A DNA stretch of 64,000 bases from Terriglobia bacterium (GTDB lineage Bacteria > Acidobacteriota > Terriglobia > Terriglobales > Acidobacteriaceae), in the NCBI GenBank assembly GCA_020073165.1, contig JAIQFP010000001.1, positions 124,001 through 188,000 of the forward strand, in the 5' to 3' direction. The translations under genes and the position numbers were made by a program. How positions within the stretch are numbered: the stretch's first letter is position 1; every line of letters begins with the position of its first letter. The notes under the pieces were generated by a model. The model was not told the origin of the DNA, ran no database searches, and saw only the letters and a program-made list of their open reading frames with translations. Below, piece after piece: positions 56,002-60,763 of the stretch.

Positions 56002-58125
56002 CTAGAGCAAGATTCCCCGCAGAATGACGCTGGCGACAGAGAAGTAGATGACTAATCCGCTGACATCAACCAGGGTTGCAACGAAGGGGGCCGAGGCGCT
56101 TGCAGGATCGAGCCCGCAGCGGCGCAGCACAAACGGCAACATAGACCCGGCCGTGGTACCAAACAGCACCACGCCGATGAGGCTACATCCGATGGTGAGT
56201 GCGACCACCAGATAGTGCGGCCCGTAGGTCCCGCGTACCGTATGCCAGAGGAAAATTCGCGAGACGCCGATTATGCCGAGTATCGTTCCCAATGCAAGGC
56301 CAGCCGCCAACTCGCGCCGTATGACACGGAACCAGTCCCGCAGACGAATTTCTCCCAACGCCATGGCGCGAATGACCAGCGTCGTGGCTTGCGAGCCGGA
56401 GTTCCCACCGCTGCTGATGATCAGTGGGATGAAGAGGGCGAGCACGACAGCGCGCTCGATTTCCTTGGAAAAGAAGCCCATGGCGGTCGCGGTCAGCATC
56501 TCGCCCACAAACAGAATGGCGAGCCATCCGGCTCGTTTGCGCACCATCTGCCCGAACGTGACTTCCAGGTACGGGCCCTCCAGCGCTTCCATACCGCCGA
56601 TCTTCAGAATGTCTTCGCCGGCTTCCTCCTGAACGATTCCCGCAACATCCGCGCTGGTGACTATGCCCAGCATGTGTCCCTCTTGATCGAGTACGGGCAC
56701 TGCCAGCAGGCGTCGCTTAGCCAGCAATTGCGCGACTGTTTCCTGGTCCGTATCTTCCTCGACAAAAACATAATCGGTGTGCAACACCTCGCGAACTCTC
56801 CTGGATCGCTCCGCCGAAATGAGCTCGCGGAAGGAAACTACTCCCAGGAGGTGTTGCGCGTCGTCCAGGGCGTACGCGTAGTAGATCATTTCCACGTCCC
56901 CGGCCTGCTGCCGGATCCGGACGATGGCCTCTTCCACGGTGATGTCCGGGGAGATATGGACGTAGCCAGCGTGCATCAACGCGCCGGCTTCGTCTTCCGG
57001 ATAGGGAGACGCCGGGCGGCCCAGGCGGCTGCGTTCGGCAACGACCGTGACTTCCATCTCGTTCGCGTGCTGCAGCACCTGTTCGGTGAAGTCAAGGCCA
57101 GGAAGCCAACGCCTTCTGGGACTGGTGTCGCGGTTGAGGAATACCTGGGTGACGCCGTTCTTGCGCGCATAGTCAACCAGGATTTGAGCGCGGTCCTTAC
57201 CGTGGATGATCTTGGTGCCAATGTGAAGGTTCTCGGCAAAGCGGAGGTGGCGCTCGATAGTTGGGCGGTCTTCTGCAGGCAAAGCCTCGGATTCCTGTTT
57301 GGAGTAAACGTACACTGCCATACAAACCGCCTGCAGATGGTCAGCCACACGCCGGGCGCGGCGCAGCAGCATGGCAGTCGAGGGATCAGCCGTGATGTTG
57401 ACAAGAATCTTCTGAGCATGCAACTCAGACGGTTTCGTCTTTCCCGTCTGCCGCGCTTCCAGCGCCTGGGCTGTCTGCCGAATGGCCAGCTCACGCAAGG
57501 CAAAGAGAACGGGTTCCTGAAAGATCCTCTCCGCTTCAGTCTTCGCTCTCTCAGGGGGGTATATCGCACCCCGCTCCAGGCGATGCAGCAGCGCTCGCGG
57601 AGTCACATCCACGATCACAACCTCGTCGGCCTGCTGGAAAAACCAGTCCGGCACCGTCTCACGCACTCGCCGCCCGGTGAGTTGCCAGATCTGGTCGCTC
57701 AGGCTTGCCAGATCCTGCACGTCCATGGTCGTCACCACATCGATGCCGGCTTGGAGCAGGGCTTGAACGTCTTGCCAGCGCTTTGGGCGCGCCGAGCCGG
57801 GGGCGTTGGAATGGGCCAATTCGTCCACCACGCAAACCCGAGGACCCCACTTCAAGACAGCTTCGACGTCGAGCTCTTCGGTTGTGCCACTACGATGTGT
57901 GATACGCATGAGCGGAATGGTCTGCAATCCATTGAGCAGCTCGCGAATGTCGTTGCGGCCGTGGGGGTCCACAACCCCGACCACGAGATTGACTCCGCGT
58001 GCCTTCACCGCCCGCGCGTCTTCGAGCATCTGATAAGTTTTTCCGACACCGGGAGCGTAGCCGAGATAGATTTTGAGATGGCCATCAGCAGTTAGGTGAG
58101 TCATGGCAATTTGTTTTTCACTCAA
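56002..58125 (-). CDS. KdpD sensor domain-USP-CBS-MgtE fusion (magnesium channel)
   Basis: A 707-residue fusion. Residues ~15-225 are the KdpD N-terminal sensor domain (Walker A GYAPGVGKT at 22-30; VVDELAHSNAPGS at 99-111). Residues ~237-375 are a universal-stress-protein fold, as in KdpD. Residues ~385-505 are a CBS pair (VPVLDQEGHMLGIVTSADV). Residues ~530-707 are the MgtE/SLC41 channel: about five membrane helices with SSGGNSGSQATTLVIRAMA and, in the last, APFVATLVDVSG with the pore aspartate. The usual MgtE cytoplasmic N domain is replaced by KdpD-USP, and there is no histidine kinase. TTG 58125 overlaps the upstream KdpD-like gene (TTGA); ATG 58104 is an alternative. Function inferred: Mg2+ passage gated by nucleotide/turgor-type signals. 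Confidence 0.9.
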   Translation of the reverse strand: MSEKQIAMTHLTADGHLKIYLGYAPGVGKTYQMLEDARAVKARGVNLVVGVVDPHGRNDIRELLNGLQTIPLMRITHRSGTTEELDVEAVLKWGPRVCVVDELAHSNAPGSARPKRWQDVQALLQAGIDVVTTMDVQDLASLSDQIWQLTGRRVRETVPDWFFQQADEVVIVDVTPRALLHRLERGAIYPPERAKTEAERIFQEPVLFALRELAIRQTAQALEARQTGKTKPSELHAQKILVNITADPSTAMLLRRARRVADHLQAVCMAVYVYSKQESEALPAEDRPTIERHLRFAENLHIGTKIIHGKDRAQILVDYARKNGVTQVFLNRDTSPRRRWLPGLDFTEQVLQHANEMEVTVVAERSRLGRPASPYPEDEAGALMHAGYVHISPDITVEEAIVRIRQQAGDVEMIYYAYALDDAQHLLGVVSFRELISAERSRRVREVLHTDYVFVEEDTDQETVAQLLAKRRLLAVPVLDQEGHMLGIVTSADVAGIVQEEAGEDILKIGGMEALEGPYLEVTFGQMVRKRAGWLAILFVGEMLTATAMGFFSKEIERAVVLALFIPLIISSGGNSGSQATTLVIRAMALGEIRLRDWFRVIRRELAAGLALGTILGIIGVSRIFLWHTVRGTYGPHYLVVALTIGCSLIGVVLFGTTAGSMLPFVLRRCGLDPASASAPFVATLVDVSGLVIYFSVASVILRGILL

Positions 58126-59144
58126 TGTGGGAAAACGCGGACGTCCATGCCTTCAGCGGCCCGGATCAAGCGGCTTACAGGACTTCCCCACAAGAGGGTT
58201 CTCCAATCTTTCCTCATGCTGTGCCCGACAAAGATTTGGGTAACCCCGTGTGAGCGGGCATATTGCACGATGGTTTCGACCGGGTCATCCCCTTCCAGCA
58301 CATCGACCCGGGCACCCGCTCCGCGAGCGTGCGCCAGGCTCTCTTCCACATCTCTTTGTTCCTCGGGGGAAAGGTTGGGCTGCTTTACAGAGACCGCCAT
58401 GACGTCACAGTGAAAGCGGGCCGCGCTTTGCCGGGCGCTGGCGATCATCCGATCCGCGTTCGCGCGCGCCGTGAGACAAATCAGAAAACACTCGTGGGTC
58501 CGCCATCCCGGCTCAATCTCATGTGCCTGCAAGTAGCGCTGCAGGCCGGCGTCAATCACGTCCGCGGAAAGGACCAGGGCCATCTGGCGGAGCTCGGAAA
58601 GCTCCGGCGGCGCCCCTTCCGTAGGAGCATCTACGACGACGATTTCATCCGCCGTGTTAAGAAACTCCCGGGGAATGGTTTCAGTGACTTGTTGCCCGGT
58701 GAGTTTCTCCACCGCCTCGCGCTGGTCGTCAATGTGCTGCAGGTTCACAGAGGCAACCACGGTGATTCCTGCCGATAGAAGTTCATCGACATCTTGCCAG
58801 CGATGGGCGTGACGGCCCCACAGGCTGTCATACGCCAGGCCATCAATGATGCATACCTGCGGATGGCGGCGAAGGATCGCCTCTACGTCAATCACGGGTA
58901 CGCCTTTTTCGTCGAGAGTAGGGACGACTTCCAGCGAGTTCAACAGCGGCTTAATTTCAGGCGGTACCTCTGGTTGGAGAGCTCCCACTACCACATCCTG
59001 CCCGCGTTCCTTTCGCCTCCGCGCTTCATCGAACATGCGAAACGACTTGCCGACACCAGAGGCGTAGCCCAGAAATACTTTCAGGCGGCCGCGCGGGGAG
59101 TCCGGCGGTGCGGCGCCGTGCAGGTTTGGATCGGAACCAGGCAT
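58122..59144 (-). CDS. Stand-alone KdpD-type sensor plus USP domain, no kinase
   Basis: A 340-residue cytoplasmic protein with the KdpD N-terminal domain (GRLKVFLGYASGVGKSFRMF) followed by a USP domain (CFLICLTARANADRMIASAR, VTQIFVGHSMRKDWRTLLWG). It ends there: no membrane helices, no histidine kinase. The P-loop is intact, but the Walker B-like segment VDELAH of KdpD is IDGLAY here, so the acidic residue and histidine are lost; ATP handling may differ from the paralog. It overlaps the KdpD-MgtE fusion by 4 bases, so the two are made together and may form a complex. ATG 59144 is chosen over starts at 59174 and 59195. Confidence 0.85.
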   Translation of the reverse strand: MPGSDPNLHGAAPPDSPRGRLKVFLGYASGVGKSFRMFDEARRRKERGQDVVVGALQPEVPPEIKPLLNSLEVVPTLDEKGVPVIDVEAILRRHPQVCIIDGLAYDSLWGRHAHRWQDVDELLSAGITVVASVNLQHIDDQREAVEKLTGQQVTETIPREFLNTADEIVVVDAPTEGAPPELSELRQMALVLSADVIDAGLQRYLQAHEIEPGWRTHECFLICLTARANADRMIASARQSAARFHCDVMAVSVKQPNLSPEEQRDVEESLAHARGAGARVDVLEGDDPVETIVQYARSHGVTQIFVGHSMRKDWRTLLWGSPVSRLIRAAEGMDVRVFPH

Positions 59145-59286
59145 AGCCTGACGATTGTAGCGCCCGCCGGGCATGGTGGAAATACGTGTTCGCACTCAGA
59201 CATAGAGTTGTTGTTCCCCACAACCGAGAGCCAGCGGTTACCAACGGCACTTTCCCCCTTTCCGCCGCTCGCGCTACATTTTGCCC

Positions 59287-59484
59287 ATGGCCACCACCAC
59301 GAAACCCCAGTACCGCTGCATGCAGTGCGAGATGATTGAAGAGAAGTGCTCCTGCGAGAAGTACTGTTGCCTCTGCCAGGGTCAGGTGGATATCCGGCTC
59401 TGCCAGGACGGCCTGTACTACTGCCCACCCTGCCGCGAAGCCTGCAACTACAAGGTGGCGGACAACTCCAACCGGCAGTCCTGA
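59287..59484 (+). CDS. Cysteine-rich miniprotein
   Basis: A 65-residue protein with eleven cysteines in CxxC and CxC spacings (YRCMQCEMIEEKCSCEKYCC, LCQGQ, RLCQDGLYYCPPCREAC). No signal peptide, so a cytoplasmic zinc-binding protein with two small knuckles is likely. The family is unknown to me. ATG 59287 is the better start; a TTG at 59281 is in frame. Divergent from the KdpD-like gene. Confidence 0.65.
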   Translation: MATTTKPQYRCMQCEMIEEKCSCEKYCCLCQGQVDIRLCQDGLYYCPPCREACNYKVADNSNRQS

Positions 59485-59568
59485 ATTCCCACGAATCCCG
59501 ACTGCGGCTCGCTTTTGGATGTGCGGGCGAGACGACGCCACCCCTTCGACTCCGCTCAGGGCAGGCTT

Positions 59569-59592
59569 GGCCGGCGGGACGCCGGCGCTACG
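59569..59592. repeat. GCCGGCGGGACGCCGGC palindrome, copy 1
   Basis: GGCCGGCGGGACGCCGGCGC followed by TACG. The core CCGGCG-GGA-CGCCGG is self-complementary. An identical copy lies at 59686-59709. Just left of it is a CCCTTCGACTCCGCTCAGGG word of the dispersed type at 59551-59570. Confidence 0.75.
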
Positions 59593-59603
59593 TTACCAGC
59601 TTG

Positions 59604-59638
59604 CTTCATCATTCCGTGCTGGGCGATGCCGGTATGTC
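59604..59638. repeat. Degenerate duplicate of the cyclase gene 3' end
   Basis: About 33 bases that align with 59714-59748, the last codons of the diguanylate cyclase gene, with roughly six differences. On the minus strand it still encodes TGIAQHGMMK against IGIAQRGVMK in the gene. It sits directly after palindrome copy 1, as the true end sits after copy 2. Confidence 0.65.
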
Positions 59639-59685
59639 GCGGGTGTGCAGGTATATCAATCGTCGGCTGCGTAAACAGGGTTGGT

Positions 59686-59709
59686 GGCCGGCGGGACGCC
59701 GGCGCTACG
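59686..59709. repeat. GCCGGCGGGACGCCGGC palindrome, copy 2
   Basis: Same 24 bases as 59569-59592. It lies 1 base beyond the stop codon of the diguanylate cyclase gene on the minus strand and could act as a 3' hairpin for that transcript. Confidence 0.75.
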
Positions 59710-59710
59710 G

Positions 59711-60763
59711 CTACTTCATTACTCCACGCTGGGCTATGCCGATATTGTCTCTGGTCGTGTTCTTCACCAGGTACATCATTTCGTCGGCCTGGCGGATCAC
59801 GTCGTGCGGGGTCTTGGCGTCGTGCGGGTAGGTGGCCACGCCAATCGAGGCGCGGACGTTCAAGTTCAGTCCTTCTTCCTGGCAGAACATGCTGGTGCGC
59901 AGGTTGTCGCGTAGACGCTTGGCCACGACCAGGGCGGCGTCTTTCCCGGTCTGCGGCAACAGAATCACAAATTCATCACCACCGTAGCGGAAGGCATAGT
60001 CAATCAAGCGCAACTGCGCCTTGATGAGGTAGCCAATCTCGGCCAGCAGCTTGCTTCCAATCAGGTGGCCGTGGGTGTCGTTGACCTGCTTGAAGTGGTC
60101 CAGGTCAATGAACAGCACGGTGAATTCATAGCCGAAACGCGCGGAGCGGTAGACCTCGGTTTCCAGCGTCTTGTAGAGATGCCGGGCGTTGTACAGGCCG
60201 GTACAGTCGTCGGTGATGGTGAGTTCCTGAATTTTTTCCACCGAACGGGCGTTCTCGATGGCAATCGCGGCGTAGTCGCACAGGGACTGCAGGAAAAACA
60301 GTTCGGGGTCGGTGAATCCATCCATACTGACGTTGACCAGCTGGATGACGCCCAGAACGCGGTGCTTGGAGCGAAGAGGCACGCAGATAATGGAGCGGGT
60401 CTCCCACTTGGTCATCTCGTCAATGCGTTTGGCGAAGCGTGGATCGGTGTAGACGTCGGGAACGATCAACCGTTCCCCGTGTTTGGCCACCCAGCCGGCG
60501 ATCCCTTCGCCCACCTTGAGGCGGACATTCTTTAAGGCCTCAGCAGCGCTCCCCACGGCGATGGCGAAATAGAGTTCTTCCTTTTCCTCGTCCACCATGA
60601 GGAGCGACCAAGTGTCGGGACGGAAGTACTCCGCCATTTTCTCCATGATGGTTTGCAGGATGGAATCAAGGTCCAGGGAAGACGTGAGGGCCTTGGCCAC
60701 ATCATGGAAGATGTTCAGTTCCTGGCTTTGCCGGTTACGGTCGGCGTCGGTGGCCTTGGTCAT
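59711..60763 (-). CDS. GAF-GGDEF diguanylate cyclase
   Basis: A 350-residue soluble protein making cyclic di-GMP from GTP. The N-terminal GAF domain (ILQTIMEKMAEYFRPDTWSL, VGEGIAGWVAKHGERLIVPD, IICVPLRSKHRVLGVIQLVN) senses a small ligand. The GGDEF domain has DLDHFKQVNDTHGHLIGSKL and the active site RYGGDEFVILL. The inhibitory site RxxD is present (RLID, five residues before GGDEF), so product feedback is likely. ATG 60763. A partial copy of its 3' end lies just beyond it. Confidence 0.93.
   Translation of the reverse strand: MTKATDADRNRQSQELNIFHDVAKALTSSLDLDSILQTIMEKMAEYFRPDTWSLLMVDEEKEELYFAIAVGSAAEALKNVRLKVGEGIAGWVAKHGERLIVPDVYTDPRFAKRIDEMTKWETRSIICVPLRSKHRVLGVIQLVNVSMDGFTDPELFFLQSLCDYAAIAIENARSVEKIQELTITDDCTGLYNARHLYKTLETEVYRSARFGYEFTVLFIDLDHFKQVNDTHGHLIGSKLLAEIGYLIKAQLRLIDYAFRYGGDEFVILLPQTGKDAALVVAKRLRDNLRTSMFCQEEGLNLNVRASIGVATYPHDAKTPHDVIRQADEMMYLVKNTTRDNIGIAQRGVMK

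Follow-up and report, generated by a model that had tools for sequence, protein, structure and literature searches.

The closest described systems are the MgtE Mg2+ channel of T. thermophilus (PDB 2yvx/2zy9) and the short KdpD/Usp serine kinases; papers given by PMC number are cited from excerpts. In T. thermophilus MgtE, D432 belongs to site Mg1, E258 to Mg2, D259 to Mg3 and D226/D250 to Mg5, while the N domain contributes D91 (Mg4), D95 (Mg6) and E59 (Mg7), and mutating any single site of Mg2-Mg7 blocks closure (PMC5882242). Its CBS domains hold an ATP site formed by Y170, R187, D188 and F227 (PMC5529423). In E. coli the KdpD domain acts as an atypical serine kinase on S162 of KdpB, and changes in Walker A (G-X5-GKT), D109, E110 or W39/R190 abolish or nearly abolish kinase activity (PMC11018627). 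The same paper also describes a short KdpD from D. geothermalis that is stimulated by c-di-AMP, not by K+, and places the suggested K+-sensing sites of E. coli KdpD in its TM/GAF part. The Usp domains of c-di-AMP-binding KdpD proteins of Firmicutes carry the motif (A/G/C)XSXSX2N(Y/F), with an altered binding mode noted for some homologs (PMC8214093), and in B. subtilis MgtE was reported as a c-di-AMP binder and Mg2+ shifts inversely to K+ under osmotic stress (PMC8844918). The component domains are known; of their union, like the first-pass annotation of this DNA, we found no account in the open-licence literature searched.

We analyzed a 64,000-nt stretch of a Terriglobia genome (the window; genome G000). 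An open frame on its minus strand, 56002-58125, spans 707 codons and joins a KdpD N-terminal domain, a Usp domain, two CBS domains and an MgtE channel (Table 1). The KdpD-MgtE fusion is genuine, a single conserved protein. All five fusion proteins that we identified begin MTH and are 700 aa long, which points to ATG 58104, and not TTG 58125, as the probable start codon.

Table 1. Features of the fusion gene and its partner in the window. Pfam and structure-search coordinates use the 707-residue numbering; residue numbers elsewhere refer to the 700-aa form.
Feature	Window position	Strand	Basis
Fusion gene KdpD-Usp-CBS-CBS-MgtE, 700 aa + stop	56002..58104	-	ATG start
KdpD domain	57463..58086	-	PF02702, E 1.7e-80, residues 14-221 of 707 (Pfam); nearest solved structure of the head, KdpD N-terminal region 2r8r, E 4e-65, fusion residues 13-220 (sequence search)
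Walker A G-X5-GKT (GYAPGVGKT), residues 15-23	58036..58062	-	
Walker B Asp-Glu, residues 94-95 (E. coli D109/E110)	57820..57825	-	Alignment
Usp domain, residues 230-358, limits by eye	57031..57417	-	PF00582, E 0.0057, sub-cut-off; NF038185
Two CBS domains, residues 373-500	56605..56988	-	Pfam CBS, E 2.4e-16, two stretches; T. thermophilus MgtE alignment from 127
MgtE membrane channel, residues 516-700	56005..56559	-	PF01769, E 3.1e-37, residues 566-697 of 707, 128.1 bits (cut-off 27.6); TIGR00400 whole-family score 287.3 bits (cut-off 232.75)
Pore aspartate codon, D680 (T. thermophilus D432)	56065..56067	-	
Partner gene A, KdpD-Usp, ≤357 aa, Walker B Asp-Gly, predicted inactive kinase	58122..59195	-	

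The domain order that the first-pass annotation had read from the letters was borne out by Pfam and by solved structures, with the Usp match alone falling short of the Pfam cut-off (17.6 bits against 24). The Usp region is also covered by an NF038185 match and by the alignment to E. coli KdpD (its residues 23-390, 39%), and strands and helices alternate there in a low-confidence structure model. NF038185, the 'KdpD-like non-kinase' family of NCBIfam, spans residues 7-357 of the 700-aa form (8.3e-86), and the score of 288.6 bits lies under the curated cut-off of 550, as does that of the canonical short KdpD encoded in G000 (386.6 bits). For the channel half, the nearest solved structure in a sequence search was T. 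thermophilus MgtE, over residues 373-704 of the 707-codon frame (E 6.7e-72). The structure model of the fusion itself was poor (pLDDT 63.1, pTM 0.33, built from 8 sequences); Foldseek retrieved MgtE, 2r8r and CBS structures with it, and we did not rely on its geometry.

Other elements named at first pass were found as well. Both the SSGGNSGSQ motif and the pore aspartate are present, the latter aligning to D432. The histidine kinase part had been called absent, and a Pfam scan gave no HisKA, HATPase, GAF or DUF4118 match at E ≤0.01. The classical MgtE N domain had been called replaced, and the scan reported no MgtE_N (PF03448) in the window protein; this domain was found in 10/10 unfused relatives scanned and, in shortened form, in both of the kdp-operon copies scanned. 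KdpD-Usp occupies its position, since the alignment to MgtE begins only at MgtE residue 127. A 626-aa open frame also runs antisense across the fusion gene (56215-58095), and it is probably a GC-rich shadow frame. No riboswitch reached gathering score in the whole window or in loci L064, L141, L104 and L105, and none appeared at 59100-59760 of the window even at E ≤1.

The fusion is known from five genomes: that of the window, G748 (locus L064), G768 (L141), G947 and G953. All five proteins are 700 aa, align without gaps and are 79.0-86.9% identical in pairs; the full fusion in L064, from a Terriglobia MAG, is 85% identical to the window protein. At the junction, 10 of 14 positions are identical across all five. 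Halves that are always separate genes had been named beforehand as the observation that would speak against the fusion, and five genomes carry it. Because the five carry the fusion without gaps, a frameshift or an error of assembly is improbable, and we rejected an artefact or a chimeric assembly on this ground. Most relatives do have separate genes, which is what a sequencing, assembly or pseudogene artefact would predict, but we regard such an origin as scarcely credible for a frame that is the same and gap-free in five genomes, is free of internal stops in all three coding sequences examined, and has whole-frame dN/dS values of 0.057, 0.059 and 0.076 (three pairs among three genomes, with synonymous sites near saturation). 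Some individual domains gave no computable dN/dS value, and the short linker reached up to 0.47 in one pair.

Our genome counts are lower bounds because the samples overlap and few candidates were scored per genome (two in the phylum, class and G768-relative samples, five in the G748-relative sample). Among the matches listed, the window's own was the only full-length match in 396 phylum genomes and, at E ≤1e-75, in 399 class genomes. The fusion was found in two of 199 relatives of G748 (G748 and G768) and in four of 399 relatives of G768 (G768, G748, G947 and G953), and a contig scan for six short patterns, all taken from one protein, returned 6 loci, of which 1, L064, was a full fusion. Outside the fusion clade, the KdpD-Usp and MgtE halves were separate genes in the sampled genomes. 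Among the matches listed, standalone KdpD-Usp proteins (gene B, ~370 aa) were mostly 46-54% identical, and the nearest unfused MgtE proteins were 60-67% identical. Three fusions formed one clade both in an MgtE tree of 78 rows (support 100/100) and in a quick tree of the KdpD half with 51 rows (SH-aLRT 100). The five genomes look like one clade, and the simplest reading is that the fusion arose once.

Long MgtE frames (670-1178 aa) in other members of the phylum were considered as KdpD fusions and rejected. At eight such loci (L070, L071, L072 and L074-L078) only the MgtE half of the fusion was matched, and Pfam scans of L045, L050, L070, L071 and L075 gave MgtE_N, CBS and MgtE and no KdpD, with one additional sub-threshold FliG_N match in L075. 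Open frames of 890-1176 aa ending in MgtE_N-CBS-MgtE were seen at L070:2031-5474, L072:3883-7383, L074:2804-6331 and L075:4932-7601. Several hundred residues ahead of MgtE_N had no Pfam match (L070, L075 and, as L050, part of the L072 frame); this segment is either an extension of the MgtE protein or merely an upstream open frame.

From residue 127 of T. thermophilus MgtE to its end, the fusion has the same CBS pair and channel, and the D432, E258, D259 and D247 positions are retained in 5/5 fusions. It differs in having R at 226 and G at 250 (Mg5), again in all five, and in carrying KdpD-Usp instead of the N domain. D91, D95 and E59 are gone along with that domain, so the residues of Mg4, Mg6 and Mg7 are lost. 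By analogy with the T. thermophilus channel, the usual closure by Mg2+ is not expected of the fusion, and something else should therefore control its pore.

We rejected loss of Mg5 as a fusion-specific trait. Neither D nor E stands at position 250 in 8/75 unfused relatives, including four of the closest (L083, L084, L088 and L090), and 226 and 250 are changed in those four as well as in L066, L104 and L105. The CBS ATP site of the fusion keeps its Y and R and has Glu for D188 and Leu for F227, as in many unfused relatives. A loss of this site through takeover by KdpD was likewise rejected as specific to the fusion, F227L being present in 53/75 unfused proteins.

The preferred reading, to which we assign a probability of about 0.48, is that the protein is an MgtE-type Mg2+ channel gated by KdpD-Usp, with this head in place of the Mg2+-sensing N domain and probably with the product of gene A as a partner. 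A short KdpD (ATP/serine-kinase domain plus Usp) would substitute for the Mg2+ sensor and would probably work with the adjacent KdpD-like pseudokinase A. A nucleotide or second messenger (ATP, or a K+-linked one, perhaps c-di-AMP) would bind the head, and the signal would be relayed through the CBS domains and the plug helix to open or close the pore. Mg2+ influx would then track the K+/osmotic state of the cell and not cytosolic Mg2+ alone. Alternatively, the two halves could function independently and be joined for co-expression alone, as might be expected of a fusion limited so far to one clade whose halves lie apart in most relatives. We consider this improbable, as the joint removes the N domain, the normal contact partner of the CBS domains, and as the 700-aa length in 5/5 proteins and the conserved junction also speak against it.

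Gene A lies directly upstream of the fusion in 5/5 genomes, and in the window 17 nt separate its stop from the fusion ATG. The first-pass annotation had proposed that the fusion is a one-component device. This proposal is weakened because a partner KdpD-Usp gene precedes the fusion in all five genomes, and the fusion may not be a one-component device. Among A-type proteins the Walker B motif is disabled in 23/24 rows. In these rows K37 is kept (24/24), T38 is Ser (24/24) and E110 is replaced in 23 (22 Gly, 1 Pro), with 1 keeping Glu. Since the Walker B Glu is lost and K37 kept, these residues predict an A without kinase activity that may have retained ATP binding. Standalone B proteins have E110 and R190 in 21/21 rows; both row sets include a few near-copies. 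Genes of type A were seen beside kinase-competent B in L104-L115, L119-L121, L141 and others.

The ATP-site motifs of the fusion are intact, as had been noted for its P-loop. In the alignment to E. coli KdpD, the equivalents of G30, G36, K37, T38, D109 and E110 are present in 5/5 fusions, R190 is retained in the 3/5 checked, and Tyr stands at the W39 position. The fusion shares with the short KdpD/Usp serine kinases (D. geothermalis KdpD; NF038185) a KdpD and a probable Usp domain without a histidine kinase, and, by the same alignment, their kinase residues save W39. It differs from them in being joined to CBS-MgtE, in having a pseudokinase gene in front and in scoring below the NF038185 cut-off.

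This conservation of kinase-essential residues, with Tyr for W39 excepted, could mean that the KdpD domain works as a serine kinase on the channel itself, on A or on another target, an activity absent from the first-pass annotation, the more so as the Walker A and DE motifs and the R190 residues checked are kept in the fusions and E110 is universal in the B rows and gone from nearly all A rows. Conserved Walker motifs, however, are also compatible with plain ATP binding, and the known KdpD substrate is S162 of KdpB, not a channel; we judge an active channel-linked kinase unlikely. We are doubtful of a broader version, in which a Mg2+ channel with its own serine kinase, controlled by a second messenger, and a pseudokinase would couple K+ signals to the only recognised MgtE-, CorA- or MgtA-type uptake.

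Genes at kdp loci, named through comparison with E. coli, combine the same parts in other arrangements. In other genomes B genes often sit right behind a second KdpD-Usp gene, A. The A-B pair follows kdpA-kdpB-kdpC in L107, L108, L109, L111, L112, L113 and L114 and precedes kdpABC in L106, and no kdpABC was seen within the stretch fetched for L110, L119 and L120. In L104 (G595) and L105 (G465) the order is kdpA-kdpB-kdpC-mgtE-A-B with mgtE unfused, a porin gene being inserted between kdpC and mgtE in L105. Like the fusion locus, these sets combine MgtE, A and B genes; there, however, mgtE stands apart as a gene of its own, upstream of A and together with kdpABC, and encodes a shortened N domain. 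Its product (L104:7998-9182, L105:5091-6275) is 395 aa long; its alignment with T. thermophilus MgtE starts at chain position 92, and D91 and D95 are kept. The occurrence of mgtE near A/B pairs in two genomes, together with the fusion, supports a functional link and does not prove it. The Mg3 residue of these MgtE proteins is lost too, Gln standing at 259, and positions 214 and 255, which we take to be Mg2+ ligands, are no longer acidic.

Near the fusion itself the kdp genes vary. The fusion of L141 (G768) has its own A immediately upstream and faces a convergent kdpABC-methyltransferase-A-B set. At L064, A and the fusion are preceded by KdpE-like and histidine kinase genes, and the same contig carries kdpABC at a distance of ~57 kb. 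In the stretches checked beside the fusion, 16 kb of the window, 19 kb of G947 and 13.7 kb of G953, no kdpABC gene was seen. The kdpABC genes of G000 sit on a different contig, near a short KdpD gene of their own that has the DE motif (L081).

These neighbourhoods bear on a reading in which the fusion acts in the opposite direction, as a membrane-anchored brake on Kdp: the head would phosphorylate S162 of KdpB, and the MgtE part would make this Mg2+-dependent, so that Mg2+ would act on the K+ pump. The TGES motif of KdpB is present in G000, G768, G748, G595 and G465, and kdp loci of G595, G465 and G768 include either the fusion or its parts as unfused genes. The K+ pump already has a candidate kinase, however, because of the canonical short KdpD with DE near kdpABC in G000 and the plain A-B pair behind kdpABC in G768, and where no second MgtE or CorA was found, using the channel as an anchor would seem costly. 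We regard a brake on Kdp as rather unlikely.

G000 (35 contigs, 100% complete) encodes a single PF01769 protein, the fusion, and G748 also has one. These two genomes, which the PF01769 and CorA searches covered out of the five with the fusion, have no CorA (PF01544; 0/2), and all 14 controls gave a signal. No Mg2+ P-type ATPase (TIGR01524) scored above cut-off in G000, G748 or G768 (0/3), a model for which 14/14 controls gave a signal and only 2/14 scored above cut-off. The best G000 match had 63.4 of 610.75 bits; partial matches were seen in G768 (two, 351 and 303 bits) and G748 (one, 237 bits). Of the importer families covered, namely MgtE, CorA and MgtA-type, the fusion is the sole member recognised in G000.

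Control of the preferred KdpD-Usp-gated channel by ATP, K+ or c-di-AMP had been proposed at first pass. Direct K+ sensing is unlikely, because the TM/GAF part to which the suggested K+ sites of E. coli KdpD belong is absent here and because D. geothermalis KdpD was stimulated by c-di-AMP and not by K+ (PMC11018627). Control by c-di-AMP is possible because a diadenylate cyclase is present (PF02457, in 2/2 genomes tested), but the fusions do not match the Firmicute binding motif: they show NITADP(S/A)TAML or similar at that site, as judged by eye beside E. coli KdpD in an alignment without an S. aureus row. We retain c-di-AMP as one candidate ligand, with ATP as another.

If the preferred reading is true, the coupling of K+ and Mg2+ would be covalent here, with the KdpD portion of a regulator of the K+ pump and a Mg2+ channel in one protein, which suggests that K+ signalling and Mg2+ uptake are wired together within one molecule. 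This would bear on the unsettled question of how cells link K+ and Mg2+. A cation channel and a kinase also share one chain in TRPM7 of animals (PMC13299664). The fusion, with its putative kinase, would in principle be the equivalent in bacteria. ATP, c-di-AMP, kinase activity and Mg2+ current can all be assayed together on one protein, the fusion, and the KdpD kinase/pseudokinase pair (B and A), which occurs in many of the Kdp neighbourhoods fetched, merits separate study. To our knowledge, the channel and kinase folds of TRPM7 are unrelated to those of the MgtE-KdpD fusion.

Several neighbouring genes were also noted. Upstream of A in the window, on the same strand, lies a GAF-GGDEF gene of the diguanylate cyclase type (59711-60763). 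A BBP2 beta-barrel porin gene adjoins the kdp genes at L105:3660-4853 and L081:4594-6408. A methyltransferase gene accompanies kdp, A and B genes at L105:8531-9205, where its product has a hydrophobic N-terminus, and at L141:4655-5344, and the cluster of the L105 methyltransferase has further members in L104 and L073.
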